This document shows positions 37,576-51,442 of a stretch of DNA of 64,000 bases, one piece after another. The DNA comes from Flavobacterium sp. N502536 (lineage in GTDB: Bacteria; Bacteroidota; Bacteroidia; Flavobacteriales; Flavobacteriaceae). Location: positions 434,001 to 498,000 of the forward strand of contig NZ_CP110011.1 in assembly GCF_025947345.1 (NCBI RefSeq), read 5' to 3'. Within the stretch, counting starts at the first letter, position 1; each line of letters begins with the position of its first letter. Under the pieces are notes generated by a model. The model ran no database searches. It was not told where the DNA came from and saw only the letters and a list, made by a program, of their open reading frames with translations. A program made the position numbers and the translations under genes.

Positions 37576-38589
37576 TTACTTCTTTACATACTTATTCAGG
37601 ATATAATGTGTTACAGGCCGCAACGGGCTATTATTTTCCGGATGCCTGCCATGCGCATCAAAAAAGTCAATTCCATTTGCTTTTCTAGCATACCATACAA
37701 TAGCTACTCCGTTTTTATCAAAATAAGTCGTCGTATCACAGACCTTAATCTTTTTAAGATGGATAAGCGTTGGATCTAATATTTCAATATCAGCATACTT
37801 AACAGGATCTTCTATTTTCAGATCACAATCTACCATTTCATAATGGTCACCCGACCACTGCATGCATTCTTTATCTTGAAAAGCGTAATAAGTACTTACA
37901 CTTATTAAACACAAAAGACCAATAATTCCCATAATGGTAAAATGCATTTTTGTTGGAAATTTAGGCCTAGAGCCAGGATTAGGATTAGGATTAGAATCAG
38001 GGATTTTTTCAACACTTACATTTACAAATGAGTTGACTGCTGGTTTTATCTCTTCAACACCACTTATTACCTCTCTTCCACTCCCTTTTTCTCTTTCTTT
38101 TCTAACCAAAAAATTGTCTAGAATTCCGGAATGCTTATTCTGTTCCTTTTCCGTATTCAACACTTCTATTTTTTCTCCCTCATCTATTGGACCTTCCTCT
38201 TCAGGTTGAACCTCATCTTCAAATAATTCCTGAATTCTAAATTTATTAAAAGGTCTTGCCTTGAAATCGACCAAGATTGCGGCCATATTTACTACATCCA
38301 TATTTGCGGGATCGGATTCTCCTTTAAAAAAATTATCAATGGGTCTGAATTTATCTATTTGCCTATCAAAATTGTTCTTTTTGTTCACATCAAAAGCGAG
38401 CCCTAACAAAGAACTAAAAACAGTTAAATCGTCCTGATTTCTGTTTTGCTGCAGAAATAACTCCCAACACAAATTACGGAGTCTTCCTCTAGTAGGATTA
38501 CTTAAATAAAAAGAATGTCCGCTGTTTTTTTCTATCTCATATTTCTTTTTAACAGCTTTTTTATACTCTTCAAATGGATCGGTTGGCAT
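37576..38589 (-). CDS. Unknown-family membrane protein, module A
   Basis: 337 residues, no recognised family. The first ~125 residues are a conserved domain shared with the minus-strand protein at 48548-49165: KKKYEIEK, NPTRGRLRNLCWELF, QDDLTVF, DKFRPIDNFFKGE, and VDFKARPFNKF. An acidic/variable linker follows (~130-215), then one membrane helix (~222-243) and a ~95-residue C-terminal domain outside. Topology suggests a cytoplasmic N-domain and a periplasmic sensor part. It is divergent from the lipopeptide-kinase genes. Regulatory function is a guess from layout. Confidence 0.8.
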   Translation of the reverse strand: MPTDPFEEYKKAVKKKYEIEKNSGHSFYLSNPTRGRLRNLCWELFLQQNRNQDDLTVFSSLLGLAFDVNKKNNFDRQIDKFRPIDNFFKGESDPANMDVVNMAAILVDFKARPFNKFRIQELFEDEVQPEEEGPIDEGEKIEVLNTEKEQNKHSGILDNFLVRKEREKGSGREVISGVEEIKPAVNSFVNVSVEKIPDSNPNPNPGSRPKFPTKMHFTIMGIIGLLCLISVSTYYAFQDKECMQWSGDHYEMVDCDLKIEDPVKYADIEILDPTLIHLKKIKVCDTTTYFDKNGVAIVWYARKANGIDFFDAHGRHPENNSPLRPVTHYILNKYVKK

Positions 38590-38593
38590 AGGT

Positions 38594-38690
38594 TTTTAGG
38601 ATTTATAAGGATTTCTTAATTGGATTTTCAAGGACTTTTACGGAATTATCAGGACTTCAAAAAATACATCGGAATTCCCGGAATTCCGTA
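38594..38690. repeat. ~10-bp phased GGA repeats upstream of module A minus gene
   Basis: GG(A) recurs at about 38599, 38609, 38622, 38632, 38642, 38652, 38671 and 38680, near helical periodicity. On the minus strand it reads as imperfect TCCTxAAAAA units running up to the start codon. The same design occurs at 49171-49230 in module B. Confidence 0.65.
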
Positions 38691-38713
38691 TCAATACAGG
38701 CTTACAAGCGTCG

Positions 38714-38864
38714 TTACTTTGCCTTCAGAATCAGTTAACGTTTTGATCTGCAGGTTAAAACAAAAATACTAAACTAGTTCAATTAAAAAGTGCGGAAAAC
38801 CGTAAAACGGAATTTATCCGGGAAGTATAAATGAAAAATTTACTGTCTACGCACTTCACTTCCC
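38714..38864 (+). promoter_or_regulatory. Conserved leader/promoter region of module A
   Basis: Blocks shared with module B in the same order and spacing: CTTACAAGCGTC plus TTACTTTGCC (near-consensus -7 box, 38714-38721), ATCTGCAG (38746), AAACTAGTTCAA, and an inverted repeat GGGAAGT (38820) / ACTTCCC (38858) spaced 38 bp. The box lies ~224 bp before the lipopeptide ATG, giving a long structured leader. Confidence 0.65.
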
Positions 38865-38944
38865 ACCAAAATTGGCATTGCCATAACAAGATTCAGAAAA
38901 GTTCTGAACGGGCATGCCGCATATAATTTTTAAATCCAAAAACC

Positions 38945-39127
38945 ATGAAAAATTTATATTTGATGGGAGCAATTATGCTTCTTAGTGCCTCTTTATATTC
39001 TTGCACCGCTGATGAATACGATACAGCAAAAACAAATGACAAACCTGCAATACCTGCATATGCTGACGGTCCCGGTGATTTACCGATAACGGTTCCGCCA
39101 CCACCGCCACCTCCACCAGTAAAATAA
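38945..39127 (+). CDS. Small proline-tailed lipopeptide, module A (ADGPGD peptide)
   Basis: 60 residues. A lipoprotein signal ends at SLYSC, leaving a 41-residue anchored peptide that starts CTADEY. It is acidic, then carries ADGPGD and ends in eight Pro and VK. The copy-B peptide shares the layout: SC(T)xDEY, ADGPGD, PPPPPP. Both lie 56-58 bp upstream of a TPR histidine kinase, with a terminator-like hairpin between. It could be a signal, a kinase co-sensor or an envelope-stress reporter. No known family is recognised. Confidence 0.8.
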   Translation: MKNLYLMGAIMLLSASLYSCTADEYDTAKTNDKPAIPAYADGPGDLPITVPPPPPPPPVK

Positions 39128-39168
39128 TGGTGAAGTAAAATAGTTCATTAACAATTAATTAGTATTTT

Positions 39169-39207
39169 CGGGGAAAGTAACTTTTATGGTACGATCCCCG
39201 TTTTTTT
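39169..39207 (+). terminator. Terminator-like hairpin containing the kinase start codon, module A
   Basis: CGGGGA (39169-39174) pairs with TCCCCG (39195-39200), with an inner GTA/TAC pair, followed by seven T (39201-39207). The kinase ATG at 39186 is in the loop and the T-run encodes the Phe-rich start of its signal peptide. Module B has the same arrangement. Confidence 0.7.
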
Positions 39208-40889
39208 ATTTTTTATTTTTTCTGCTGCTTCTTTCCTGTCAAGAGCAAGCTCCCCATACTTCTAATGCTTCATCCATCAGAAAAGACGCCATAGACTATG
39301 TTAATAAAGGAAGGGTTAGTTTTCAAAACAAAAACTTTAACACCGCATTTTATCAATTTAATAAATCAAAAATTGCCTCCGAAGCGATAAAAGACAGTGC
39401 CAATGTGGTGTACAATCTTATCCAGATGGCTACTATCCAACAAATAAATGGGGATTATTACGGAAGTAAAGAAACACTGACAGAGGCTTTACCCTACATT
39501 AAAAAGAAAGATGTTTACAGTGCTGCGATTAACAACTTTTTTGGAATTGCAGATAAAGAGCTTTCCCTATATAATGATGCCATTTTTTATTATCAGGAAG
39601 CCCTAAAAGATTGCACGGATGATACTTGCAAACAGTCTCCTTTAAACAATATTGCGGTGGTATACATCCAACAGAAAAAATACGATAAGGCGATCGGGAT
39701 TTTAGAGCCTTTACTCCAAAATAAAACACTTGATAATGATCTTGTAAAAAAAGCCGGAATTCTAGACAATCTAGGTTTTGCTTATTTTAAAAAAGGAATG
39801 ACTGAAAAGGGACTTTCGTTAGTAACTGAAGGTTTTGAACTGAGAAAACAATCCAACGATCTCTACAGAAGTATTGAAAGCAATTTGCATCTGGCTGAAA
39901 TCTATGCCAAAACAAAACCTGAAAAATCACACCAATATGCTCAGGCAGCGTATCAACTTGCGACACACTTCAATAGTGTTGATGAACGCTTAAGGGCTTT
40001 GTCCTTTTTGATTTCTAATGATTCCGGAATTAAAAACGTACAGTATGCTCAAAAGTTCATTTTTCTGAACGACAGTATTATTAAAATCCGGAACAACTTT
40101 AAAAATAAATTTGCCAAAATTAAGTACGATTCTAAAAAAGAAAAAGATGAAAATCAGAAACTCCGCTTAGAAAAAGCCGAAAATTTACTATCTCTTCAGG
40201 AAGCCAAATACCAAAGGCTATTTTTTATAATTGGAATCGCTGCTTTGTGTCTTTTATTATTGTATTTGAGAAAATTTTATCAAAACCGAAACCGAATCGA
40301 AAAAATAACAGCGGCATACGAAACTGAAACCCGGATTGCCAAAGACATTCATGATGAACTGGCCAATGATGTTTTTAACACCATCACCTTTACCCAAACA
40401 CAGTCCTTGGAAAGTACCAATGTAAAAGACAATTTAATTCAAAAACTGGATCATATTTACAATAGGGTTCGCAGAATTTCAAGAGAGAATAATGAAATTG
40501 ATACCAAAGCCAATTATGCGGCCAACTTAAAAGAAATGCTTTCGACTTATAACAGCCCTAGTACAAACGTCATCATTAATAATATTGAAAAAGTAAGCTG
40601 GGATCTCGTAGACGATGTTAAAAAGGTTGCTGCACATCGAATTCTACAGGAATTAATGGTGAATATGAAAAAACACAGCCAGGCATCAATAGTCGTTTTA
40701 AAATTTGAAAGCACCACCAGCAAAATACTTATAGACTATACGGACAACGGAAAAGGCTGTCAAAATGATAAAATTATTAAAAATGGTCTTCAAAATATGG
40801 AAAACCGTATTCGGGCCATAAAAGGAACTATTATTTTTGACACTGAACCTAATAAAGGTTTTAAAGTAAAAATAACAATGCCTAAATAA
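39186..40889 (+). CDS. TPR sensor histidine kinase, module A
   Basis: 567 residues. A Phe/Leu-rich lipoprotein-type signal (ending LLSC) precedes about six TPR-like repeats (~35-290; NNIAVVYIQQKKYDKAIGILEPL), then a linker, one membrane helix (~343-360) and a kinase core of the NarX/LytS-like class. The phospho-acceptor His is in AKDIHDELANDV (~397). The N-box is RILQELMVNMKKHSQAS and the G-box YTDNGKG, with GLQNMENRIRAIKG. It senses outside or at the membrane via TPRs and should phosphorylate the regulator encoded 7 bp downstream. Confidence 0.9.
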   Translation: MVRSPFFYFLFFLLLLSCQEQAPHTSNASSIRKDAIDYVNKGRVSFQNKNFNTAFYQFNKSKIASEAIKDSANVVYNLIQMATIQQINGDYYGSKETLTEALPYIKKKDVYSAAINNFFGIADKELSLYNDAIFYYQEALKDCTDDTCKQSPLNNIAVVYIQQKKYDKAIGILEPLLQNKTLDNDLVKKAGILDNLGFAYFKKGMTEKGLSLVTEGFELRKQSNDLYRSIESNLHLAEIYAKTKPEKSHQYAQAAYQLATHFNSVDERLRALSFLISNDSGIKNVQYAQKFIFLNDSIIKIRNNFKNKFAKIKYDSKKEKDENQKLRLEKAENLLSLQEAKYQRLFFIIGIAALCLLLLYLRKFYQNRNRIEKITAAYETETRIAKDIHDELANDVFNTITFTQTQSLESTNVKDNLIQKLDHIYNRVRRISRENNEIDTKANYAANLKEMLSTYNSPSTNVIINNIEKVSWDLVDDVKKVAAHRILQELMVNMKKHSQASIVVLKFESTTSKILIDYTDNGKGCQNDKIIKNGLQNMENRIRAIKGTIIFDTEPNKGFKVKITMPK

Positions 40890-40896
40890 GAACTCT

Positions 40897-41565
40897 ATGT
40901 TTAAAAAAGTAATAGTTGCCGAAGACCTTGATACTATGAATTTAGGAATCGAACAAGTCTTAAGAGATTTGGATATTATCAATTTTCAGCAATCCAAGTA
41001 TTGTGATGAAGCCTTTCTAAAAATACGCAAAGCCATTCAGGACAATGAACCTTATGATTTATTAATTAGTGATCTTTCGTTCAAAACAGATCACCGCGAA
41101 GTAAAAATTGCCAGTGGTGATGAACTGGTTCAAAAAGTGCGTGAATTACAACCCAACATTAAAATCATCGCTTATTCGGTGGAAGATAAAAGCTACCGCA
41201 TTAAATCTCTTTTTGATAATGCAAAAGTGGATGCCTTTGTATCAAAAGGTCTGAATAGCATCGAAGAACTAAAAAAGGCAATTCACATGATCTCGACATC
41301 AGATCAAAGGTTTATTTCACCCGAAGTTGCTTCTGCCCTTCAGGAAAAAAACAACTTCGAAATCGACGATGTCGATATTAAAATTCTGAAATACTTATCA
41401 GCCGGAACGTCACAGGATGAAATCATAGAAATTTTTAAAAGCACCGACATTAAACCCAATAGCAAAAGTGCCGTGGAAAAAAGATTGTCTAAACTCAAAG
41501 ACTTTTTTAAGGCAAACAATACAATTCATTTGGTTACCATTACCAAAGACATGGGAATTATCTAA
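40897..41565 (+). CDS. Response regulator with LuxR-like C-terminus, module A
   Basis: 222 residues. The receiver domain has acidic AEDLDTMN at the N-terminus, phospho-Asp in LLISDLSF (~59) and Lys in FVSKG (~120). The C-terminal ~70 residues form a helix-turn-helix of LuxR/NarL type (DVDIKILKYLSAGTSQDEIIEIF, SAVEKRLSKLKDFF). It is cotranscribed with the kinase and ends at a strong terminator. Module B lacks such a gene, so this regulator may serve both kinases. Confidence 0.88.
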   Translation: MFKKVIVAEDLDTMNLGIEQVLRDLDIINFQQSKYCDEAFLKIRKAIQDNEPYDLLISDLSFKTDHREVKIASGDELVQKVRELQPNIKIIAYSVEDKSYRIKSLFDNAKVDAFVSKGLNSIEELKKAIHMISTSDQRFISPEVASALQEKNNFEIDDVDIKILKYLSAGTSQDEIIEIFKSTDIKPNSKSAVEKRLSKLKDFFKANNTIHLVTITKDMGII

Positions 41566-41594
41566 AAGTTCCCTGTACTTCATTATACCTTTTC

Positions 41595-41619
41595 AAAGCT
41601 CCTTCTGGGGCTTTTTTTT
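41595..41619 (+). terminator. Terminator of module A
   Basis: AAAGCTCC pairs with GGGGCTTT (one G-T), 4-nt loop, followed by a run of T to 41619. Confidence 0.9.
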
Positions 41620-41643
41620 ATGGCCTGAATATAAATTTTTCGG

Positions 41644-41710
41644 ATTATGGATTTCCGTAAGATACTGGTTTCAAATAGGATTAAGTTTGAATTATAAATC
41701 CATTTAAACT
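41644..41710 (+). promoter_or_regulatory. Shared promoter element, copy 1 (TerB/VWA operon)
   Basis: ATTATGG, TTTCCGTAAxATACxGG, and TAAGTTTG (-7 box match, 41682-41689), then TTTAAACT. The same string of blocks precedes the nuclease gene at 45252, with 38 bp from ATTATGG to the -7 box in both. This is a candidate regulon site. Confidence 0.72.
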
Positions 41711-41718
41711 CAAAAACA

Positions 41719-41925
41719 ATGAAAACTTATTACGTAAATGACACAGCACAAAAAAACGGAGATCACGAAGTTCATACTGATGAATGTCCATATTTTAAAT
41801 CAATTACAAGTAAAACACGACTAGGTGTTTTTTCAAACTGCAAAGATGCCGTTGACCGATCCAAGAAAATTTATCCAAACTCTGACGGATGCGCCTATTG
41901 CTGTCCTGAATGTCACAAAAGATAA
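41719..41925 (+). CDS. Small Cys/His-rich protein (68 aa)
   Basis: 68-residue soluble protein starting MKTYYVNDTAQ, with HTDECPYF, FSNC and CAYCCPECHKR. The spacing of His and Cys suggests a zinc site. It resembles a widespread uncharacterised small-protein family recognised by its YYVND.AQ.NGDHEVH start. First gene of a tight six-gene operon. Confidence 0.8.
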   Translation: MKTYYVNDTAQKNGDHEVHTDECPYFKSITSKTRLGVFSNCKDAVDRSKKIYPNSDGCAYCCPECHKR

Positions 41926-41933
41926 TTTTTATC

Positions 41934-42164
41934 ATGGGCTTTCGATTTCAAAAAAGAATAAAACTGGGAGGAGGCTTTGGCTTAAACTTAAGCAAATCCG
42001 GAATTTCTCCCAGTTTAAGAACAAAAATGGGAACATTTAGTAAGAGTGGCTACTCTGTAAAAACCGGAATATCCGGACTACGATACCAAAATAGCGGATG
42101 CACTGTACTAATCGCATTTACAGGAATTATAACATTTTTAATTTTCACTATAAAACAACTATAA
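41934..42164 (+). CDS. DUF4236 domain small membrane protein
   Basis: 76 residues from the ATG at 41934 (MGFRFQKRIKLGGG), 8 bp after the previous stop; the longer in-frame start at 41910 overlaps the previous gene. The N-terminal ~50 residues match the DUF4236 pattern (GFRFxKRxKLGGGxxLNxSKSGxS, GLRY). One C-terminal membrane helix follows. Function unknown. Confidence 0.85.
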   Translation: MGFRFQKRIKLGGGFGLNLSKSGISPSLRTKMGTFSKSGYSVKTGISGLRYQNSGCTVLIAFTGIITFLIFTIKQL

Positions 42165-42166
42165 TC

Positions 42167-42502
42167 ATGGGATACAGAAAAGGTTATTTTAAAAAAGACG
42201 GAACCTATGTTCAGGGACATACTACCAGATCCAGGTCCAAATCTTTTTCTAATAAGAATAACGGCTGCATGTTACTATTACTTCTAGCAATGACATTTGG
42301 ATTGGCTGTTTCTTGTTCAGAATCATCAGATTCTTCAGACTCAGGCTCAAATACAAACTCAAACTCAAATTGTCCAACCAAAACTTGTGGTGATTTTACC
42401 ACTCAGGCACAGGCGCAATCAACTTACAACAGTAATAGAAACTGTTACAAAAACCTGGACTCTGACGGAGATGGAACCGCCTGCGAAAATTTATCTAAAT
42501 AA
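42167..42502 (+). CDS. Membrane-anchored Excalibur-domain protein
   Basis: 111 residues starting at 42167 (MGYRKGYFKKDGTYVQGH), 2 bp after the DUF4236 stop. A basic N-terminus, one hydrophobic helix (~38-53) ending in SC, a Ser/Asn-rich linker, then the calcium-binding Excalibur motif (CGDFTTQAQAQ, NLDSDGDGTACENL). The Asp-loop DSDGDG is intact. The upstream extension to 42098 overlaps the previous gene and is not used. Confidence 0.85.
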   Translation: MGYRKGYFKKDGTYVQGHTTRSRSKSFSNKNNGCMLLLLLAMTFGLAVSCSESSDSSDSGSNTNSNSNCPTKTCGDFTTQAQAQSTYNSNRNCYKNLDSDGDGTACENLSK

Positions 42503-42515
42503 ATATTTAAAAACA

Positions 42516-42911
42516 ATGATAACACTAGAACTAAAAAGTCATTTTTTAAGATTGTATCAAATGGCACTAGCAGATGATCAATTTGATGTATTAGAACTGC
42601 AAATGTTATATCACTTTGCAGATGAACGAGGAATTCCCAGAGAGGAATTGGATAAGCTTTTTCTAAACCCAATTAATACCGACTTAATTGTTCCTGAAAA
42701 GCTAAGCAGCAGAATCGAGTATTTATACGATTTCACAAGAATCATTTGGGCTGATGGAAAAATTACTGAGGACGAACTCAATATGCTCAAAAAGTACTGT
42801 CGGAAATTTAATTTTCTGGAGGAAAACATCAATGAACTATCCGATTATCTCATTGATTGTGTTCAGAAAAACATTCAGAAAGAAGAAATTATTAGTCAAT
42901 TAAACTCGTAA
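42516..42911 (+). CDS. TerB-like helical protein
   Basis: 131 residues from MITLELKSHFLR at 42516; the longer frame from 42297 is a shadow of the previous gene. It is all-helical with two acidic TerB-like repeats (ADDQFDVLELQML, ADGKITEDELNMLKKYC) as in tellurite-resistance TerB proteins, which sit under membranes and may bind metal. In stress and phage-response loci TerB co-occurs with VWA proteins, as here. Confidence 0.78.
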   Translation: MITLELKSHFLRLYQMALADDQFDVLELQMLYHFADERGIPREELDKLFLNPINTDLIVPEKLSSRIEYLYDFTRIIWADGKITEDELNMLKKYCRKFNFLEENINELSDYLIDCVQKNIQKEEIISQLNS

Positions 42912-42914
42912 CAC

Positions 42915-44183
42915 ATGAAATCACTTACACAACTATTTAGTTTAAAAAAAACAGACGATATTCAGACGAATGCTTTTGAGGAAAATGAAAATGATCGCGA
43001 GCAAATCAGAATAACGTATTACCAAAGTGGGTTTGCAGCATCCATAAAAGCAACCGGAAAACCTATTGTTTTAAAAGCCTGTTTACAAAATTTGTACATG
43101 AGCTTTGAAGATCAGTGCCGAAAACAAAAACTGGAACAGGACCGATTAAAGCAGCCTTACAAAGAAGAACAGGAGAAAAACCGAACCGAGCTTAAAAAGT
43201 CGGAGGCCGCTATTGGTATCTATGAAAAAAAAGAACAGGATATAAATGAGGAAATTGACCAGATCAAAAATGAAATCATTGAAGTAAAACGCAATCCCGA
43301 TAAATACGGAATTGAAGATGGAAAAGGTCTGAAAGCGCAATTCTACATTGGTTTATTCTTATTGCTTCCCATTACGCTTTATGTACTGGTGTTTTATATT
43401 TCGGCATCCTACTCTGCTTTCTTCAAAGAATTCGCCAATGACAGTCTTACTGCTGCCATTTTTGATGCCAATGCCTTAACCAATTCTTTTAAAGCAAGCT
43501 GGCTTGAAGGAGTGTTAGTCGTTACAATTCCATTTGTCTTTATGGGGCTGGGATATGTAATTCATATGGTGCAAAAAGGAAAAGGGCTAAAAAATATCTT
43601 AAGAATGGTTGCACTGTTTGTCACCACCTTTTTGTTTGATGCGTTGCTGGCCTATCAGATCGAAAAGAAAATATATGAATTTAATAAAACTACCGATTCT
43701 GCTCCCTACAACTTAAACATTGCCTTAGGGGAAGCCGAGTTTTGGATGATCATATTTGCCGGGTTTGTGGTGTATATTATTTGGGGGCTTGTCTTTGATT
43801 TTGTAATGAAAGAATTTGAAAACATTGATAAAATCAGAGCCTTTATCAGAGGCAAAAAAGAAAATCTACTGGATTTAGATAAACTAAAAACCGAATATCT
43901 AAACAAGATCAATGATTTTAAACAGCAGATCGTGACCATCAATGGAAAAATTTCAGAATTACAATCTAAAATAGATGGTTTTGTATTTCCGGTAAAAGAA
44001 TATCTGCACTACCACCATCAATACAAAGAAGGATGGTTTCAGGCGATTAGTACCGAAATAGCACTTCCTTATACTGAAAAAAGTGAATTGTTAGAAAGCT
44101 GTGAACTGTCCTCCGAAGAACACTTAAACAGATTGAACTTAGTTGATCCCGATTTTCAACATTTAGTATATTCCAAAAACTAA
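42915..44183 (+). CDS. Coiled-coil / four-helix membrane protein, unknown family
   Basis: 422 residues. A soluble N-part leads into a charged coiled coil (~75-140), then four membrane helices (~143-165, ~193-215, ~225-245, ~270-293) and a second coiled coil (~300-355) with a cytoplasmic tail. No family recognised. It starts 3 bp after the TerB-like gene and its stop is 5 bp before the VWA-like gene, so it is translationally coupled to both. Confidence 0.82.
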   Translation: MKSLTQLFSLKKTDDIQTNAFEENENDREQIRITYYQSGFAASIKATGKPIVLKACLQNLYMSFEDQCRKQKLEQDRLKQPYKEEQEKNRTELKKSEAAIGIYEKKEQDINEEIDQIKNEIIEVKRNPDKYGIEDGKGLKAQFYIGLFLLLPITLYVLVFYISASYSAFFKEFANDSLTAAIFDANALTNSFKASWLEGVLVVTIPFVFMGLGYVIHMVQKGKGLKNILRMVALFVTTFLFDALLAYQIEKKIYEFNKTTDSAPYNLNIALGEAEFWMIIFAGFVVYIIWGLVFDFVMKEFENIDKIRAFIRGKKENLLDLDKLKTEYLNKINDFKQQIVTINGKISELQSKIDGFVFPVKEYLHYHHQYKEGWFQAISTEIALPYTEKSELLESCELSSEEHLNRLNLVDPDFQHLVYSKN

Positions 44184-44188
44184 CAACC

Positions 44189-45088
44189 ATGAAAAACAGT
44201 CTTACCATACTTGCGATCGCACTACTGCTGGTTTCAATTTTTTCGTGCAGGCAGGAATCTGGCAAGGAAGAAAAAGAAACCTCATCCAAAGAACCATTAT
44301 CAGAAAACTACAACATCAGTATCCTTCTTGATTTATCGGACAGAATAAGTTTGACCAAAAATCCAAATCCAACAATGGAATATTATCAAAGAGATCTGGG
44401 ATACATAAAATCTGTTTCTGAAGCTTTTACACAGCATTTAAAAACCAAAAGAATAAGGCAGATTGACGATAAAATGCAATTGTTTTTTAATCCGGAACCT
44501 CTAGATCCCGAAATCAATACAATTGCTAAAAATCTCAGAATCACTATTGATAAAAACAATGCTTCTAAAAATTTACTGAATTCTATAAATTCAAATTATG
44601 CCGCACAAACGTCCAAAATCTATGATTCTGCCATAAAAGACGATCATTTTATTGGGTCTGATATTTGGAACTTTTTTGATACCAAAGCAAAAGATCAGTG
44701 CGTTGAAAAAAACTATCGAAATATTTTAATCGTATTAACCGATGGTTATATGTATCATGAGAACACCATAATAACCGAAGGCAACAGAACGACCTATCTC
44801 ACACCGGAACTGATCAGAAAAAATGGACTAAATACCAAAGACTGGAATAAAAAATTACAGGAGCAAGATTTTGGCTTCATTAAAATAGGAGAAAATTTAT
44901 CCAATCTTGAAGTACTTGTTTTAGGCATTAATCCGGGTAAAAAAAATCCTTATGAAGAAAAAGTCATTACGGCCTATTGGACAAAATGGTTTACAGAAAT
45001 GAAAGTGGATCGTTTTGAAATCAAAAATGCAGATCTGCCTTCTAATATGGAACAGATTATTAAAGATTTTATCCTGCGTCAGAAATAA
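44189..45088 (+). CDS. VWA-like lipoprotein
   Basis: 299 residues. Lipobox at IFSC. The mature protein begins with a VWA-type strand ISILLDLSDRIS (DxSxR variant of the MIDAS motif) and later has ILIVLTDGYMYH, the usual TDG element. The partial MIDAS suggests a metal-dependent adhesion/scaffold domain rather than an enzyme. Last gene of the six-gene operon; terminator follows. Confidence 0.8.
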   Translation: MKNSLTILAIALLLVSIFSCRQESGKEEKETSSKEPLSENYNISILLDLSDRISLTKNPNPTMEYYQRDLGYIKSVSEAFTQHLKTKRIRQIDDKMQLFFNPEPLDPEINTIAKNLRITIDKNNASKNLLNSINSNYAAQTSKIYDSAIKDDHFIGSDIWNFFDTKAKDQCVEKNYRNILIVLTDGYMYHENTIITEGNRTTYLTPELIRKNGLNTKDWNKKLQEQDFGFIKIGENLSNLEVLVLGINPGKKNPYEEKVITAYWTKWFTEMKVDRFEIKNADLPSNMEQIIKDFILRQK

Positions 45089-45110
45089 GTCAAAGAAAAC
45101 GAAGCCGTTT

Positions 45111-45138
45111 AAAGAGGAATTTTATTGTCCTCTTTTTT
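45111..45138 (+). terminator. Terminator of the TerB/VWA operon
   Basis: AAAGAGGA pairs with TCCTCTTT (9-nt loop), followed by a short T-run. Confidence 0.85.
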
Positions 45139-45179
45139 CCATTTACAGAAATTCCAAAAATTCTTCAAAAACTCTCCTC

Positions 45180-45242
45180 ATTATGGTTTTCCGTAAAATA
45201 CCGGATTGGAATGGTTCTACATTTGAATAGTAAATTTAAACT
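45180..45242 (+). promoter_or_regulatory. Shared promoter element, copy 2 (nuclease gene)
   Basis: ATTATGG, TTTCCGTAAAATACCGG, then TACATTTG (45218-45225, exact TAnnTTTG) and TTTAAACT. Block order and the 38-bp spacing are identical to the element at 41644. Confidence 0.72.
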
Positions 45243-45251
45243 ATAGAACCT

Positions 45252-46307
45252 ATGGAAATCAATCTTCAACTTAAATCATTAGCGGATAAAATTACTCAGC
45301 TAAAAAGCAAAATCGAAACCGAAGAATCTACCAAACATGCTTTTGTTTTACCTTTTATTCATGCCTTAGGCTATGATGCCTTTAATCCCTTGGAAGTCGT
45401 TCCGGAATTTACCGCAGACCTCGGTTTAAAGAAAGGCGAAAAAGTAGATTATGCCATCTTTCAAAATGGCGAGCCCATTATAATTGTAGAGTGTAAAAGC
45501 TGGAAAGAAAACCTAACAATCCATAATTCACAATTGTTTCGCTATTTTCATGTAACCAAAACTCGTTTTGCTCTTTTGACCAATGGTATTACTTATCAAT
45601 TTTTTACTGATTTGGACGATCAGAATAAAATGGACGAGAAGCCCTTTCTGGAATTCGACATTACCAACCTCAAAGAAAACACAATCAACGAGATTTCTAA
45701 GTTTCATAAAAGCAGTTTTGACGTTGATAATATCATTAGTAATGCAAGTTCTTTAAAATACATCAAAGAAATCAAAAAGCAGATTAATGCAGAACTCGAA
45801 AATCCTTCCAATGATTTTACCAAACTTTTTGCCAGTAAAGTATACACCGGAAGGCTTACTGAAAAAGTAATGGACGAATTTAAAGATCTGGTTCAAAAAT
45901 CTTTCAGTCAATACATTAACGAAAAAATCAACGATCGCCTAAATGCTGCTCTTACCAAAGAAACCATCAAGCAGCAGGAAGAACAAATCGCTTTCCTTGA
46001 AGAAGAAAGTAAAATACAAACCACTGAAGAAGAACTTGAAGGATATCGTATTATAGTTGCCATATTAAGACAAAAACTTCCCACAAGCCGAATTGTATAT
46101 CGTGACACCCAATCCTATTTCGGAATTTTGCTGGACGATAACAATCGCAAACCGCTTTGTCGTCTTCACCTTAACGGAGGAAAAAAATACATCAGTCTTT
46201 TTAACGACAACAAAAACGAGACAAAAACAGCGATTGCATCGATTGACGATATTTACCAATTTGGGAAAGAGTTATTGGATACAGTGAGACTTTATGAAAC
46301 GGAATGA
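45252..46307 (+). CDS. HsdR_N-type PD-(D/E)xK nuclease-like protein
   Basis: 351 residues. An N-terminal helix precedes a restriction-enzyme-type core at about 30-140: VPEFTADLG, KVDYAIFQNGEPIIIVECKSW with Asp, Glu and Lys of the PD-(D/E)xK active site. The domain matches the HsdR N-terminal nuclease, but no helicase, HsdM or HsdS gene is near. The C-terminal half is a coiled coil (~225-270) and a small beta domain ending near LLDTVRLYE. An orphan nuclease of this type could act in defence or DNA repair. Confidence 0.85.
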   Translation: MEINLQLKSLADKITQLKSKIETEESTKHAFVLPFIHALGYDAFNPLEVVPEFTADLGLKKGEKVDYAIFQNGEPIIIVECKSWKENLTIHNSQLFRYFHVTKTRFALLTNGITYQFFTDLDDQNKMDEKPFLEFDITNLKENTINEISKFHKSSFDVDNIISNASSLKYIKEIKKQINAELENPSNDFTKLFASKVYTGRLTEKVMDEFKDLVQKSFSQYINEKINDRLNAALTKETIKQQEEQIAFLEEESKIQTTEEELEGYRIIVAILRQKLPTSRIVYRDTQSYFGILLDDNNRKPLCRLHLNGGKKYISLFNDNKNETKTAIASIDDIYQFGKELLDTVRLYETE

Positions 46308-46382
46308 AACACGTTCCCCATAAACTAACTATTCAAATATCCCACTATTAATACGCCTACTATTTGAAAGCTGCAAAAGAAG

Positions 46383-46422
46383 ATTACCTCCTCAAAAGAA
46401 GCACTTTTTATCAGGAGGTAAT
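46383..46422 (+). promoter_or_regulatory. 10-bp perfect inverted repeat before small secreted protein gene
   Basis: ATTACCTCCT and AGGAGGTAAT enclose 20 nt. No T-run follows. It is 31 bp before the next ATG, so it could be an operator or a hairpin in the leader. Confidence 0.5.
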
Positions 46423-46452
46423 TACTCCGTAAGAAATCCAAAACCCATTCCT

Positions 46453-46662
46453 ATGAAATACATTTTACTCCTTCTTCTTATAGTTCCGGCCTCTTTTCAC
46501 CCTTTTGAAGCCAAAGTATACATCTGCGGTCCAACAGGTGCCAAAAAATTCCATTACAATGAAAATTGCCGTGGTCTGACCTCTTGCCGCAGTGAAATTA
46601 CGAAAGTAACTCTGAAGCGTGCCCAAGGTCTTGGACTTAGCCTATGCGGTTGGGAAGATTGA
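46453..46662 (+). CDS. Small secreted Cys/His protein (69 aa)
   Basis: Signal peptide (cleavage near FEAK) then KVYICGPTGAKKFHYNENCRG, CRSEITKVTLKRAQ and LCGWED. It belongs to a recurrent small family with an HxxxxC core; four Cys in the mature form. Possibly metal-binding. Function unknown. Confidence 0.75.
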   Translation: MKYILLLLLIVPASFHPFEAKVYICGPTGAKKFHYNENCRGLTSCRSEITKVTLKRAQGLGLSLCGWED

Positions 46663-46759
46663 TCTTTTTAAGGCAAACCAGAATCATTTAATCATTTGAT
46701 AATAATCACTTTACATTTAATTCACATTAGTTTTATTAATTTGATTAAAACTAAATATC

Positions 46760-46843
46760 ATGAAATTCTTTAATCTAAATTTTCTGGTTTCATTCAAAGA
46801 ATGGCTTTTTTTAAGAGCCATGCAATCTTCTTTCCTTCATTAA
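46760..46843 (+). CDS. Candidate small ORF (27 aa) before the GH1 gene
   Basis: ATG opens 27 codons ending at tandem stops; product starts MKFFNLNFLVSFKEWLF. A near-consensus -7 box TTAATTTG (46736-46743) is 16 bp upstream. An ATGGCT/AGCCAT hairpin lies inside. It could be a leader peptide for the beta-glucosidase gene; evidence is position only. Confidence 0.3.
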   Translation: MKFFNLNFLVSFKEWLFLRAMQSSFLH

Positions 46844-46877
46844 TAAACGACAATTTTAAAAAGGAAAGCACAATTGA

Positions 46878-48230
46878 ATGAATAAAGTTGAGACCTCATT
46901 TTTGCACAAAAACCAGTTTGGAGATGATTTCTTGTGGGGTGTTTCAACCGCCGCTTTCCAAATTGAAGGCGCACCTGATACCGATGGCAAAGGACGTTCG
47001 ATTTGGGATGTTTTTACTTCTCAAAAAGGAAAAATAAAAAACGGACATCATGCCTTAACCGCTTGCGATTTTTACAATTCGTACCAAAACGATATTGACT
47101 TAATCCGTGAACTGAACATTCCGAATTTCCGATTTTCGATCAGCTGGCCCAGAATCATGCCTAGCGGAGTTTCTCCAATAAATGAGGCCGGAATAGCCTA
47201 TTACAACAAAATTATTGATTCGCTGCTCTCCGCCGGAATAGAACCCTGGATTACACTTTATCATTGGGATTTACCTCATGATTTAGAACTAAAAGGAGGC
47301 TGGACCAATCGTGAATCTGTTAGTTGGTTTTCAGCATACGTTGCCGTTTGTGTGCAGCATTTTGGTGATCGTGTTAAAAACTGGATGGTGATCAACGAAC
47401 CTTCGGTTTTTACGGGAGCAGGATACTTTTTGGGGATTCATGCCCCAGGAAAAAAAGGTATTACCAATTACCTGAAAGCCATGCACCATGTCACTTTAGC
47501 TACAACTGCGGGTGCCAAAATAATACGAAACCACATACCGGATGCCCATATTGGCACCACATTTTCCTGTACACACATTGAGCCGGCAACATCCTCTTCA
47601 AAAGACGTTGAGGCGGCAAAAAGAGTGGATACGCTATTAAACCGAACTTTTATTGAACCTATTTTAGGTTTAGGTTATCCTCAGGCCGATCTGCCTGTAT
47701 TAAAAAAACTAAATGCTTATATTGTAGAAGATGATCTCAATAATTTGTCTTTCGACTTTGATTTTATAGGTCTGCAATGTTACACCCGCGAAGTTGTAAA
47801 ATCGTCTTTGCTCATTCCTTACATTGGTGCCGAACTGATCAGTGCCGAAAAAAGGAATGTCATTTCAACCGACATGGGATGGGAAGTGTACCCGCCTGCT
47901 CTTTATCAGGTACTCAAAAAATTCAACGCGTATGAAGGCATCAGAAAAATCATTATTACCGAAAATGGTGCCGCTTTTCCGGACACACTAAAAAATGGAA
48001 AGGTGTACGACATCAAACGCACGCATTACATTCAGGATCATTTAGAGCAAATACTCAAAGCCAAAAAAGACGGCCTTGCCGTGGACGGTTATTTTGTCTG
48101 GACGCTTACCGATAATTTTGAATGGGCCGAGGGTTACAACGCCCGATTTGGATTAATACACGTCGATTTCGACACACAGCAAAGAACTATTAAACATTCG
48201 GGATTGTGGTTTAAAGATTTTTTATCCTAA
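46878..48230 (+). CDS. Beta-glucosidase, GH1 family
   Basis: 450 residues, cytoplasmic (no signal peptide). N-terminal GH1 signature FLWGVSTAAFQIEG, acid/base Glu in MVINEPSVF and nucleophile in IITENGAAF; the C-terminal substrate-site motif is DNFEWAEGYNARFG. It hydrolyses beta-linked glucose disaccharides after uptake. It stands between the nuclease region and module B with no sugar transporter nearby. Confidence 0.95.
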   Translation: MNKVETSFLHKNQFGDDFLWGVSTAAFQIEGAPDTDGKGRSIWDVFTSQKGKIKNGHHALTACDFYNSYQNDIDLIRELNIPNFRFSISWPRIMPSGVSPINEAGIAYYNKIIDSLLSAGIEPWITLYHWDLPHDLELKGGWTNRESVSWFSAYVAVCVQHFGDRVKNWMVINEPSVFTGAGYFLGIHAPGKKGITNYLKAMHHVTLATTAGAKIIRNHIPDAHIGTTFSCTHIEPATSSSKDVEAAKRVDTLLNRTFIEPILGLGYPQADLPVLKKLNAYIVEDDLNNLSFDFDFIGLQCYTREVVKSSLLIPYIGAELISAEKRNVISTDMGWEVYPPALYQVLKKFNAYEGIRKIIITENGAAFPDTLKNGKVYDIKRTHYIQDHLEQILKAKKDGLAVDGYFVWTLTDNFEWAEGYNARFGLIHVDFDTQQRTIKHSGLWFKDFLS

Positions 48231-48547
48231 AATTACCAGCGCTGCAAAAGCCATTTCACGACAATCCAATTAGCCCTAAAAAACAAATTATTTCGACATA
48301 AAAATTAAGGTTATAGGGCTACAAAGTTCCCAAAAAAAGTGCTTTTTTATAGCAAAAAAACACCTATTTTCCTTGTATTCACTAGGTTTATTGGTTATTT
48401 TTTCTTATCTTTATATTATAAATAACAGTACCTATATGCCGAAAAACAAACTATCTAAAAGCCCAAATTGCGCCTCAAAAAATTATTCTTTTACACCCTT
48501 CTTCACGCATTCTCTTTTTCAGAATGCTTTCCGACTTCCTTTAGAAA
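48231..48547. other. Gene-free stretch after the GH1 gene
   Basis: No terminator, repeat or promoter could be assigned. The plus-strand ORF at 48373-48621 has no family feature and overlaps the minus-strand gene. Confidence 0.4.
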
Positions 48548-49165
48548 CTATTCCGTTTGGTCTTTTTTCTTCACAAAGTACAAACGCGCAGAAGACACAA
48601 AAGCGACCGCCCCAACCGTAGCTGTAATTATTTTTCTTGGATAGATTTTCTTAACTATTTTTTTAGAGAGTACGTACTTAAAATTATAGAAACGATTTCC
48701 TTTTTGAGGGTAGCTTTCCACAAGATTACCTTCTTCTATGATCTCTATCTGAGCCGCTGCATTCATTTCGACAACACTTACCATGTGTTTGGCCTCATTG
48801 ATTCGGCATTTTTCATTGAACTTTTTAAAAGGGCGTGGCTGAAAATCGACGATAACAGCCGCCAGATTTATCGCATCAATATTCGATGGGTCAGTTTCGC
48901 CTTTAAAAAACGTTTCGATGGGTCTGAACTTGTCTTTTTGTTCGTTAAACTTATTCTTTCTCGTATGGTCAAAATCCAGACACAATAAATTTCTAAAAAC
49001 ATTTAAATCGTCTTGAGTCGGGTTATTTTCATAGATAATCCAACACAAATCACGGAGTTTTCCACGGGAGGGGTTGTACAAATAATCGAAATATTCTCCT
49101 TCTTTCTCAATCTCATATTTATTCTTAATCGCTTTTTTAAATTCTTCTAAAGTCTGGCTATGCAT
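48548..49165 (-). CDS. Unknown-family membrane protein, module B
   Basis: 205 residues. The N-terminal ~115 residues are paralogous to the protein at 37576-38589 (KNKYEIEK, NPSRGKLRDLCW, QDDLNVFRNLL, DKFRPIETFFKGE, VDFQPRPFKKF). The linker is short, and one membrane helix (~173-192) ends the protein; the C-terminal outer domain of the module-A version is missing. Divergent from the module-B lipopeptide gene. Confidence 0.8.
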   Translation of the reverse strand: MHSQTLEEFKKAIKNKYEIEKEGEYFDYLYNPSRGKLRDLCWIIYENNPTQDDLNVFRNLLCLDFDHTRKNKFNEQKDKFRPIETFFKGETDPSNIDAINLAAVIVDFQPRPFKKFNEKCRINEAKHMVSVVEMNAAAQIEIIEEGNLVESYPQKGNRFYNFKYVLSKKIVKKIYPRKIITATVGAVAFVSSARLYFVKKKDQTE

Positions 49166-49170
49166 GTTAT

Positions 49171-49230
49171 TTTTTTAGGATTTTTTAGGAATTTTTGGGA
49201 ATCTCAGGAAAACGTGGGAATTCTGGGAAT
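49171..49230. repeat. ~10-bp phased GGA repeats upstream of module B minus gene
   Basis: GGA recurs at 49178, 49188, 49198, 49207, 49217 and 49226, i.e. every 9-10 bp. On the minus strand this is a row of imperfect TTCCxAAAAA units ending just before the start codon, matching module A in design. Confidence 0.65.
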
Positions 49231-49259
49231 CCCTTACCAATAAAGGCTTAAAAGCGTCT

Positions 49260-49410
49260 TTACTTTGCCATAGAAATTAGTTCAAGTTTTATCTGCAGAT
49301 TAAAACAAAAATATAAAACTAGTTCAAATTAACAGTGTAAAAAAACAGTAAGACCGAATTTATTCGGGAAGTATAGATAACGTCTTACAGTTCTACACAT
49401 TGTACTTCCC
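49260..49410 (+). promoter_or_regulatory. Conserved leader/promoter region of module B
   Basis: TTACTTTGCC (49260), ATCTGCAG (49291), AAACTAGTTCAA (49317) and the inverted repeat GGGAAGTA (49366) / TACTTCCC (49403). Spacing equals that of module A within a base or two; the -7 box is ~230 bp before the lipopeptide ATG. Confidence 0.65.
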
Positions 49411-49496
49411 AAAAAACCAAATTGGTATTGTCCTAACCAACCTCCGGATCAACTCCGGTCAGCAATACCCATGTCTAATTTCTAAATCTAAATAAA

Positions 49497-49679
49497 ATGA
49501 AAAAGCTAATAATTTTTATCGCTTTCACGATACTATTCACCATGTTCTCCTGTACACCTGATGAATACGAAACTCAAACCAAACAGGAAACAAAGAAATC
49601 AATTGAACCTGCAAAACCAACTTTTGCAGATGGGCCAGGTGATGATAAAACACCACCGCCTCCGCCGCCAGATATTTAA
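49497..49679 (+). CDS. Small proline-tailed lipopeptide, module B (ADGPGD peptide)
   Basis: 60 residues, lipobox at MFSC, mature 42-residue peptide beginning CTPDEY and carrying FADGPGD followed by PPPPPPDI. It keeps length, anchor, acidic start, ADGPGD and polyproline tail of the module-A peptide while the middle has diverged, which suggests selection on those parts. Confidence 0.8.
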   Translation: MKKLIIFIAFTILFTMFSCTPDEYETQTKQETKKSIEPAKPTFADGPGDDKTPPPPPPDI

Positions 49680-49717
49680 TAAATATATATTTTTAGTATC
49701 TAATTAATTACTATTTT

Positions 49718-49757
49718 CGGGGAAAGTAAATTTATATGTTACGGTCCCCGTTTTTTT
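49718..49757 (+). terminator. Terminator-like hairpin containing the kinase start codon, module B
   Basis: CGGGGA (49718-49723) pairs with TCCCCG (49745-49750), with an inner GTA/TAC, then seven T (49751-49757). The kinase ATG (49736) lies in the loop, as in module A. Confidence 0.7.
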
Positions 49758-51442
49758 ATTTTATTCTTCTTCTTTTTCTTTTTTCCTGTAAAGAAAAAGA
49801 GACTCTAAATACAGACACAGAAAAGATCAGAAAAGAAGCGCTTAGTTTACGAAATAAAGGAAATGAAAATTTTGGAAAACAAAACTTTAATACTGCTTTT
49901 TACGAGTATAGCAAATCGAAAGTACTTTATGAAACTTTAAAAGACAGTGCCAATATTGGTTACATACTCATTCAAATATCCTTAATACAGCAAATAAACG
50001 GAGATCATTATGGCAGTAAGGAAACGGTTACGGAGGCATTAGTCTATTTTAAAAAAAAGAGCGTATATACGGCTTGTATAAATAATATATTGGGGGTTGC
50101 TGACAAAGAGCTTTCTCTTTATAATGATGCAATTCTTTATTACAAACAAGCTGCAAATGATTTTAAAGATCCCATTGAAAAGTTAGGTCCTTTAGGCAAT
50201 ATTGCAGGGGTTTATATTCAACAAAAAAAATATGATAATGCCATTGCTCTTTTAGAATCTCTTTTAAGCAAAAAATTAAAATTAAAACCTCAATCGATTA
50301 GGAGAGCTATACTTCTGGATAATTTAGGCTATGCCTATTTTAAAAACGGAATAGATGAAAAAGGTTTTCAATTAATGAATGAAGCGCTCCTCACCAGACA
50401 TGAAATTAAAGATGCTTACGGCAGTATTGAAAGTTATCTGCACTTCGCCGATTATTATGCTAAAAAAGACATTCACAAATCAAATGAAAATGCTCTTGCT
50501 GCTTATGGGGTTGCTACAAAGCTAAACAGTGTAGACGAAAGATTGGAAGCACTCCAAATTTTAATTTCAAACGATCACAGTTCTCAAAACAGTAAATATG
50601 TCCAAAAGTATTTTAAACTAAACGACAGCATTATTAAAATTAGAAACAACTTCAAAAATAAGTTTGCTAAAATTAAATACGATGCTAAAAAAGAAAAGGA
50701 TGAAAACGCAAAACTTCGTTTAGAAAAAGCAGAGAATTTACTCTCTCTTCAAAGAGCTCAATACCTGAGAATTGTATCTGCAATTATTTTCTTCTTCTTA
50801 GTGGTTCTAATTGTAATTGTAATTCGCTACTATAAAAATAAAAACAGAGCGATCGAATTTAAGACTTCCTATATAACCGAAGCCCGAATTGCTAAAAAAA
50901 TCCACGATGAATTGGCAAACGATGTATTCCATGTGATTGCTTTTGCCGAGTCCCAGTCCCTGTCTAAAGAAAGTACCAAAGAGAATCTGCTCCAAAAATT
51001 AGATGATATTTACGGTCGTGTAAGAGGAATTTCGAGAGAGAACAATAAAATTGATACGGGTGTAAATTTTACCAGCAGTATCAAAGAAATGCTTTCGACT
51101 TACAATACCAACGAAAGAAATATCATTGTAACCAACTTAGAAACGATCAACTGGGAGGCGATTAACGATACCAAAAAAATTACCATCAGCAGGATTTTAC
51201 AGGAATTAATGGTGAACATGAAAAAACACAGCCAGGCTAGTATAGTTGGAATAAAGTTTGAAAATAAAGAGAAATCAATCTCCATACATTATACAGATAA
51301 CGGTAAAGGTTTTGAAAAAGCCAGTACCGCAAAAAATGGCCTGCAAAACATGGAACACCGCATTCAGGCTGTTAAAGGAACCATTGATTTTGAGACAGAA
51401 CCCGATAAAGGATTTAAAGCAAACCTATCCATACCGAAATAA
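49736..51442 (+). CDS. TPR sensor histidine kinase, module B
   Basis: 568 residues and clearly paralogous to the module-A kinase (over half identical by eye). Lipoprotein-type signal (LFSC), TPR repeats (~35-290), membrane helix (~344-362), phospho-acceptor His in AKKIHDELANDV, N-box ELMVNMKKHSQAS, G-box YTDNGKGFE. The coiled linker IRNNFKNKFAKIKYD is almost unchanged between copies. No response-regulator gene follows; a terminator comes 60 bp later. Confidence 0.9.
   Translation: MLRSPFFYFILLLFLFSCKEKETLNTDTEKIRKEALSLRNKGNENFGKQNFNTAFYEYSKSKVLYETLKDSANIGYILIQISLIQQINGDHYGSKETVTEALVYFKKKSVYTACINNILGVADKELSLYNDAILYYKQAANDFKDPIEKLGPLGNIAGVYIQQKKYDNAIALLESLLSKKLKLKPQSIRRAILLDNLGYAYFKNGIDEKGFQLMNEALLTRHEIKDAYGSIESYLHFADYYAKKDIHKSNENALAAYGVATKLNSVDERLEALQILISNDHSSQNSKYVQKYFKLNDSIIKIRNNFKNKFAKIKYDAKKEKDENAKLRLEKAENLLSLQRAQYLRIVSAIIFFFLVVLIVIVIRYYKNKNRAIEFKTSYITEARIAKKIHDELANDVFHVIAFAESQSLSKESTKENLLQKLDDIYGRVRGISRENNKIDTGVNFTSSIKEMLSTYNTNERNIIVTNLETINWEAINDTKKITISRILQELMVNMKKHSQASIVGIKFENKEKSISIHYTDNGKGFEKASTAKNGLQNMEHRIQAVKGTIDFETEPDKGFKANLSIPK

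Follow-up and report, generated by a model that had tools for sequence, protein, structure and literature searches.

Introduction

Outer-membrane lipoproteins such as RcsF and NlpE act as sensors, and the RRNPP regulators are cytosolic tetratricopeptide repeat (TPR) transcription factors or phosphatases that are bound by a re-imported peptide. To our knowledge, the monitoring of lipoprotein export and of the state of the outer membrane is poorly understood in Bacteroidota. In two-component systems of the HisKA_3/NarL type (UhpB, DesK, VraS), a kinase with an HDEL histidine motif and a HATPase domain is encoded beside a response regulator. Transmembrane transcription regulators of the ToxR/CadC type have a DNA-binding domain in the cytosol, one hydrophobic segment, an outer domain, and a local target promoter (as described in an excerpt of PMC10269533). 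And in Flavobacterium psychrophilum, conserved folded RNAs include the small RNA Rfp18 and structured 5' regions (from an excerpt of PMC9723704). Here we describe a cassette in Flavobacterium sp. N502536 that shares features with each of these systems. It occurs twice in a 64,000-nt stretch of this 5.05-Mb genome (NZ_CP110011.1, positions 434,001 to 498,000; "the window" is this whole stretch). Its parts are a membrane protein (M), a repeat array, a structured leader RNA, a small lipoprotein (L), a TPR sensor histidine kinase (K), and, in most cassettes, a response regulator (R).

The cassette also differs from each of these systems. M would be like ToxR and CadC in a presumed cytosolic DNA-binding domain, but M1 from the window has no match in Pfam, adjoins a phased array of multiple repeats, and has a lipoprotein gene and the genes for both partners of a two-component system beside it. 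K and R resemble the HisKA_3/NarL-type systems, but K has a presumably extracytoplasmic TPR domain, a dedicated lipoprotein encoded upstream, and a hairpin at its start codon. Like RcsF and NlpE, L is a small lipoprotein and a candidate probe of an envelope-stress kinase; the likeness is one of putative role, and L is encoded directly upstream of its kinase and has about 35–45 amino acids when mature. The RRNPP receptors share with the cassette a TPR domain and a gene for a small exported peptide, but here the TPR domain belongs to a histidine kinase and the peptide is lipid-anchored, which places the cassette outside that group. Finally, unlike Rfp18, the leader RNA is followed by a coding sequence and then a kinase gene (a comparison by description only, from the excerpt of PMC9723704). 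We found no description of the cassette in partial listings of the open-licence PMC literature. It ties an RNA that is absent from Rfam, a membrane regulator, a lipoprotein, and a kinase together in one compact locus, and it suggests an envelope-sensing mechanism that has yet to be characterised.

Results

Two modules in the window

The full order of parts is M, a repeat array with a period of about 10 bp, a promoter, the structured leader RNA, L, a hairpin over the start codon of K, K, and R. The features of the two modules are:

37576..38589, minus strand: M1, an open reading frame (ORF) of 337 amino acids, with an N-terminal domain (about residues 1–118), a variable linker, one hydrophobic segment, and a C-terminal domain
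38590..38690, no strand: array 1, repeats of the [AG]GGA[ACT]TT type at about 10-bp spacing, from M1 to the L promoter; candidate operator for M
38714..38722, plus strand: TTACTTTGC promoter element of module 1, -7-like, close to TAnnTTTG
38723..38783, plus strand: leader RNA domain 1, stem P0 (GAAYUAGUU/AACUAGUUC) around hairpin H0
38774..38867, plus strand: leader RNA domain 2, with P1, P2, P3, and the GGGAAGU/ACUUCCC pairing; matches RNA model R1 at 89.9 bits
38867..38930, plus strand: leader RNA domain 3, a two-stem hairpin immediately 5' of L (fold z -2.41)
38945..39127, plus strand: L1, an ORF for a 60-amino-acid lipoprotein (C-T-A-D-E-Y..ADGPGD..Pro-rich tail)
39169..39200, plus strand: terminator-like hairpin whose loop holds the K1 start codon, CGGGGA..TCCCCG and a T run
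39186..40889, plus strand: K1, TPR sensor histidine kinase (signal- or lipobox-like start, TPR, hydrophobic segment, HDELAND, HATPase)
40897..41565, plus strand: R, a 222-amino-acid response regulator (Response_reg at 27.9 bits, under the Pfam cut-off of 30.2)
48548..49165, minus strand: M2, 205 amino acids, a paralogue of M1 without the C-terminal domain
49166..49236, no strand: array 2, AGGAATTTTT-like repeats
49260..49268, plus strand: TTACTTTGC promoter-like element of module 2
49269..49480, plus strand: module 2 leader RNA, matched by model R1 over 49319-49413 at 86.4 bits
49497..49679, plus strand: L2, an ORF for a 60-amino-acid lipoprotein
49718..49750, plus strand: hairpin over the K2 start codon with a T run, read from the sequence
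49736..51442, plus strand: K2, TPR sensor histidine kinase (ORF and comparison with K1)

The original prediction, made from this DNA sequence, described two modules that share a membrane protein, a lipoprotein peptide, and a TPR kinase, and the ORFs are where it placed them. It judged the kinases to be over half identical, and on alignment K1 and K2 share 332/568 positions (58%, one gap). Both L proteins do have 60 amino acids with the Cys anchor, DEY, ADGPGD, and Pro-rich tail that it listed. Its claim that the modules have the same parts holds for M, L, and K, but within the window R was found in module 1 only, and M1 and M2 can be aligned over just their first 117 amino acids (66 identities, 56%). 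It had the core of the unit right and overlooked the repeat array, two RNA features (the structured leader and the hairpin over the K start codon), and the R of most cassettes. The non-coding DNA (array, leader, and L–K spacer) is also alike between the modules. The pair of modules is well beyond chance: searching the genome itself with L gave two strong matches, both in the modules (the next had E = 0.24), and so did RNA model R1 (next E = 1.1).

The cassette in Flavobacterium and other genera

The five-part cassette (M, RNA, L, K, R) travels as a unit in Flavobacterium and in related bacteria. We used a genus sample of 121 Flavobacterium genomes and a family sample of 299 genomes from 236 genera. 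Relatives of K (E ≤ 1e-30) are present in at least 69 of the 121 Flavobacterium genomes. Model R1 had 74 matches in 50 of these genomes; L lies within 300 nt of 73 of them (70 of these L matches have E < 1e-10), K lies within 1200 nt of 73, and 72 have both. The two matches that lack a partner are on contig G099:C65 and at the first copy of a tandem pair of RNAs in genome G103. Conversely, L had 73 matches at E < 1e-10 in the genus sample, and K is at most 700 nt downstream of 70 of these, so the peptide does not occur mostly without its kinase, and the prediction is supported in so far as this is a signalling unit with a dedicated lipoprotein, which the original prediction took as a putative ligand or co-sensor of the kinase. 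(Of the other three, one is near a contig end and two are tandem copies of L near a cassette. One of the 73, in genome G079, has an in-frame stop within the aligned stretch.) These linkages come from a table of all 74 RNA matches, the 73 L matches, 114 K matches among those listed, and 13 weaker L matches, some of which were chosen because they were beside an RNA or K match. At E ≤ 0.01, the L profile matched something in 120/121 genomes, and the weak matches that we inspected were mostly signal-peptide stretches of longer frames.

We also fetched 137 sequences with 162 K matches; 132 of these have M upstream. (Loci L100–L179 and L034–L089 are partly from the same genomes, and counts given as unique are of distinct sequences.) At most fetched loci, M is divergent from K and R follows K. 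The M–K gap is 500–649 nt in 111 of the 132 M-bearing systems, and R is adjacent to K in 110. An automatic rule identified L in 128 and missed it at L065, L081, L084, and L114; a candidate L is visible at L065 and L084. Among the named fetched loci, the closest K is from Flavobacterium collinsii (92% identical, L100); another, L127, comes from strain CI04 of the laboratory species Flavobacterium johnsoniae. At the fetched loci, small-genome species mostly have one cassette and large-genome species have two, with a second cassette that has a short M and mostly no R.

Beyond Flavobacterium, model R1 matched 7 of the 299 genomes in the family sample, five of them in other genera. After these five loci were added to the model (R2), it matched 16 genomes from 15 of the 236 genera, including Flavobacterium. 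The RNA is therefore found in 14 other sampled genera, although 9 of the 14 loci were found by R2 once the first five had joined the model. All nine have K, L, R, and an M-like gene. Indeed, all 14 loci have K (assigned by reading in L193), L, an M-like gene, and, after K, an ORF of 221–231 amino acids that we took by eye as R. The M-like protein has an outer domain at 13 of the 14 (the exception, L183, has only a 99-amino-acid N-terminal ORF), and the M N-terminus of L181 is unlike either common type. One of the loci is from Bizionia saleffrena (identified by an identical M). Among the matches listed, protein relatives of M also occur in Olleya, Winogradskyella, Tenacibaculum, Polaribacter, Psychroserpens, Lacinutrix, Thalassobellus, Kordia, and Nonlabens.

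A few loci have extra copies of parts near a kinase: an RNA in L042 (14375-15095), an L-like ORF upstream of the kinase at 3356-5062 in L044, and L copies at G088:C30:527395-527795, as if RNA–L were itself a duplicating unit. In L055, an extra K2-like kinase (14265-15971) lies directly behind K2, and no L was found before that extra kinase. Genome G061, which has no R1 match at E ≤ 0.001, has six clustered frames of 59–64 amino acids that match the L profile (G061:C1:572288-573489; E from 4e-9 to 2e-6). L064 and L066 have a kinase and L-like remnants with no RNA anchor motif and no M match, which might reflect decay of the cassette.

A conserved leader RNA

Between the TTACTTTGC element and L lies a leader of about 200 nt that is conserved, folded, and outside Rfam (0 matches at the gathering score on the window, and 0 at E ≤ 1 on 38500-39400). 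The TTACTTTGC element is present in both modules, with a similar element in relatives; the published promoter consensus is TAnnTTTG (given in an excerpt of PMC9723704). For domain 2, across 44 aligned sequences and the structure that we named, 88.1% of cells are paired. There are 118 cells with double changes, compared to a mean of 38.1 in shuffled alignments (0/500 reached this) and at most 48 when the structure was slid along the alignment. The shuffles ignore relatedness, so the slid control carries more weight, and a structure that was read off the sequences favours itself. With the other genera added (the R2 alignment, which was fitted to the structure and hence leans towards it), there are 161 double-change cells compared to 54.2, and 23 of 24 pairs have double changes. 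In domain 1, 85.0% of cells are paired, compared to at most 52.8% in slid controls, and there are 27 double-change cells compared to 10.5. Domain 3 is supported by folding and was seen by eye in relatives, uncounted.

The GGGAAGU/ACUUCCC pairing lies outside both models. It is near-invariant among 51 aligned sequences: L181 and L182 each have one compensatory change, L183 and L063 each have one mismatch, and four sequences have lost the last pair. The minimum-energy fold favours this pairing alone in module 1 and P1–P3 in module 2. By eye, a leader loop has 4–6 bp of complementarity to an arm of the K-start hairpin. We rejected a general riboswitch, as the only two strong matches in the genome are in these modules.

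Might the leader instead be processed to a small RNA that acts in trans, comparable to Rfp18, so that the transcript is a dual-function RNA whose second product is L? It is conserved, folded, about 200 nt long, and ahead of a terminator-like hairpin, and a strongly folding small RNA that is conserved in the genus has been published (excerpt of PMC9723704). We think this quite unlikely: in the genus sample, the RNA is never away from both L and K, and the independent RNAs in that excerpt of PMC9723704 are listed as without coding potential.

K, its start-codon hairpin, and R

In K1 and K2, HATPase_c is just under the Pfam cut-off (E = 5.8e-5 and 1.7e-5), and the UhpB profile matches at 1.4e-16, far under its equivalog cut-off. 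The K profile matches TPR chains (residues ~117-224) and, in its C-terminal part, DesK/VraS kinases, and the histidine of HDELAND is invariant in 16 aligned rows. K has the kinase core of a HisKA_3-type two-component system, with an adjacent R in most cassettes though not in module 2. The TPR domain follows the signal- or lipobox-like start and precedes the hydrophobic segment, and it is presumably outside the inner membrane. TPR_P4H, a model of peptide-binding TPRs, matches weakly (17.5 and 15.7 bits compared to a cut-off of 27), which is a hint only.

A GC-rich stem across the K start codon, followed by T, is present at 102 of 115 unique K starts by a strict rule. Of the 13 that the rule missed, we saw by eye a 5-bp stem in eight, a stem without the T run in L078, an interrupted stem in L067 and L123, and none at the place used in L081 and L084. 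Only 7 of 463 control ORFs matched, and six of these were cassette kinases, which leaves 1/457. No hairpin was found at the 10 K starts without L. Outside Flavobacterium, a slightly looser rule found a AGAGGAATGAA/TTCATTCCTCT-like stem at 12 of 13 loci (it is absent in L192), and a stem was seen by eye in L193. Because the same design is kept with different sequence, the hairpin is probably functional. The T run could partly reflect Phe and Leu codons of the signal peptide.

L is a selected lipoprotein

Among 112 unique L, position +2 is T in 104, +4 is D in 107, and +5 is E in 91 or D in 14; position by position, the most frequent residues from +2 to +5 are T-A-D-E, in register with the Q-A-(D/E)2 export signal. 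Published surface-export signals are Q-A-(D/E)2 and SDDFE, and by sequence L has the features of the Bacteroidota lipoprotein export signal, namely a polar residue and two acidic residues after the +1 Cys (excerpt of PMC5080379). L is probably exported as a lipoprotein to the cell surface. (Our search for L required the lipobox Cys.) The ratio of nonsynonymous to synonymous differences (pN/pS) is 0.29 over 30 pairs, some of which share a member, so L is a selected protein. The middle of L is variable, and pN is well below pS in signal, middle, and tail alike.

We considered an extension of the original prediction, in which cells would signal to each other with L, as a diffusible or surface peptide, and K would be the receptor. 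TPR domains can bind peptides, strong L matches are beside K, and the middle of L varies. This seems improbable given that L keeps the lipobox Cys (which our search required) and a signal like those for surface export, and that no protease or exporter is among the recognised neighbouring genes.

We also considered that L acts mainly as a nascent-chain or leader peptide: ribosomes would stall at its Pro-rich end, and the stall would control the hairpin at the start of K, so that expression of K would be coupled to lipoprotein export or to the activity of elongation factor P (EF-P). The Pro fraction is 0.40 in the last 14 residues of L compared to 0.08 before them, the stop codon of L is 50–69 nt before the start of the K match in 100 of 112 unique L, and the hairpin is conserved. 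However, although most L have a Pro-rich tail, some do not, which weakens a pure stalling explanation: three of 14 L from other genera (L192, L199, L201) have no run of 3 or more Pro, and in 30 of 112 unique L the longest run in the last 18 residues is at most 2. Nor does stalling fit the low pN/pS in all regions of L. Furthermore, the hairpin of module 1 begins some 40 nt past the L stop, which is probably outside the footprint of a stalled ribosome. We therefore consider this explanation very doubtful.

M and the repeat array

M1 has no Pfam match at E ≤ 1, no NCBIfam match, and no match to a sequence in the Protein Data Bank (PDB). No winged-helix family was among 25 of the 47 Pfam families with weak matches to 89 members of M. 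The hydrophobic segment was identified by eye. The C-terminal (outer) domain of M1 is conserved (CMQW..DHYE..HPE..LRPVTHYI).

To compare arrays, we used 90 of the 132 M-bearing systems, after excluding those with over 700 nt of intergenic sequence, no anchor, no TTTG, or under 45 nt of array, as well as duplicates. The arrays are helically phased: matches at lags 9 and 10 are at 0.445 and 0.447, compared to 0.275–0.277 in shuffled arrays. The similarity of arrays (by 5-mers) is correlated with the identity of M N-terminal domains (r = 0.53, or 0.52 given K identity, p = 0.001). Given M, array similarity is not correlated with K (-0.05) or with the leader (-0.01), and given the N-terminal domain, it is not correlated with the outer domain (0.07, in a subset of 69). 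The array adjoins the codons of M, so we controlled for linkage by using third-codon similarity: the correlation of array with M is 0.50 given third codons, and that with third codons given M is -0.03. In pairs whose third-codon similarity is under 0.6, array similarity averages 0.49 for pairs of the same type (n = 13) and 0.29 for pairs of different types (n = 1276).

In 13 arrays from other genera, the strongest lag is 11 (0.383 compared to 0.299); L181 gave only 49 nt of array and L183 no M start. By eye, Flavobacterium-type M domains in two other genera (L097, L189) adjoin GGAAT repeats, a second type of M (such as L184, L186, and L188) has TTTCC repeats, a third (L182, L187) has TGTC repeats, L095 has TTTTCC-like repeats, and L099 shows no clear pattern.

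As the repeat motif tracks the N-terminal domain of M, and not the kinase, the leader, or third-codon similarity, the most likely role of M is that of a membrane-tethered regulator which binds the array. This supports the suggestion in the original prediction that the membrane protein is a second regulator. Its other suggestion, an immunity-like partner, is not supported, and we rejected a toxin–immunity system because no such organisation was seen. That R instead binds the array, as the response regulator of the same unit and with the array upstream of the promoter, is highly implausible given that the tracking of M persists when third codons are controlled for, that L097 and L189 pair Flavobacterium-type M domains with GGAAT repeats, and that loci with AACTTT arrays (L043, L047, L048, L054, L057, and L059) have R proteins 74–87% identical to R from the window.

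A strict 3-unit pattern matched the genome once, at array 1 (0 matches in the reversed control), and missed array 2. We provisionally rejected the idea that the array is a site used across a regulon, on a search limited to this strict pattern, with no looser pattern or other motif tried.

Proposed mechanism

We propose that this is an autoregulated envelope-sensing cassette, duplicated in large-genome Flavobacterium species, and we give this a probability of about one half. M would be a membrane-tethered DNA-binding regulator, similar to ToxR or CadC: in the cytosol, its N-terminal domain would bind the helically phased array, and those M that have an outer domain would use it to sense something beyond the inner membrane. 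The L promoter would give an mRNA headed by the conserved structured leader, followed by L, and the terminator-like hairpin at the start of K would keep K (and R) under control at the RNA level. The order of the parts thus implies two layers of control: M at the array, and the RNA-level control of K after L. L would be a dedicated probe for the extracytoplasmic TPR domain of K; in transit or mis-sorted, it would bind K, and K would signal through R. This sentinel idea arises from the surface-export-like signal of L and the presumably extracytoplasmic TPR domain of K, by analogy with RcsF and NlpE. The computational evidence covers the parts and how they are linked, the conservation of the RNA and of the hairpin, the selection on L, and the co-variation of array and M. 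We infer the direction of regulation, the contact between L and K, the signal (that for M included), and the ligand of the RNA, if it has one, as well as DNA binding by M.

Several observations weigh against this proposal. If L is exposed on the surface, it would be separated from K, its putative partner, at all times other than transit. The outer domain is missing from M2 and from the M of L183, and sensing by M is thus not a general feature. DNA binding by M is predicted from co-variation, for a protein with no family or PDB match. The promoter and the terminator were assigned from sequence. In the leader, the GGGAAGU pairing may exclude P1/P2, in place of one pseudoknot that contains both, and covariation is weaker in domain 1, where further pair types are no more numerous than in shuffled alignments (202/500). 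Finally, 41 of 114 K matches (among the matches listed) have neither the RNA nor L. The kinase family is therefore wider than the cassette, and such kinases can work without either.

A more elaborate version, which we consider unlikely, is a hitherto undescribed three-input surveillance of the envelope in which a tethered transcription factor on a phased array, a switching leader RNA, and a lipoprotein that serves as bait for the export route of surface lipoproteins all gate a TPR kinase. The leader would switch between P1/P2 and GGGAAGU/ACUUCCC, with the start codon of K buried in the terminator; if surface export fails, L would stay periplasmic and K would turn on.

Neighbouring genes and a related locus

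Between the modules (window 41719-48230) are genes for a 68-amino-acid protein, Excalibur and TerB-like proteins, proteins of 422 and 299 amino acids, an HSDR_N protein, and GH1. Relatives of these genes are found at many of the fetched cassette loci, including some with a single cassette; this is recurrence alone and does not imply that they belong to the system.

At another locus in the same genome (L034 4855-9012, from 732851), we searched for a candidate L and a start-codon hairpin and found neither; it encodes two tandem TPR kinases, 36–38% identical to K1, and a response regulator that is 50% identical to R.

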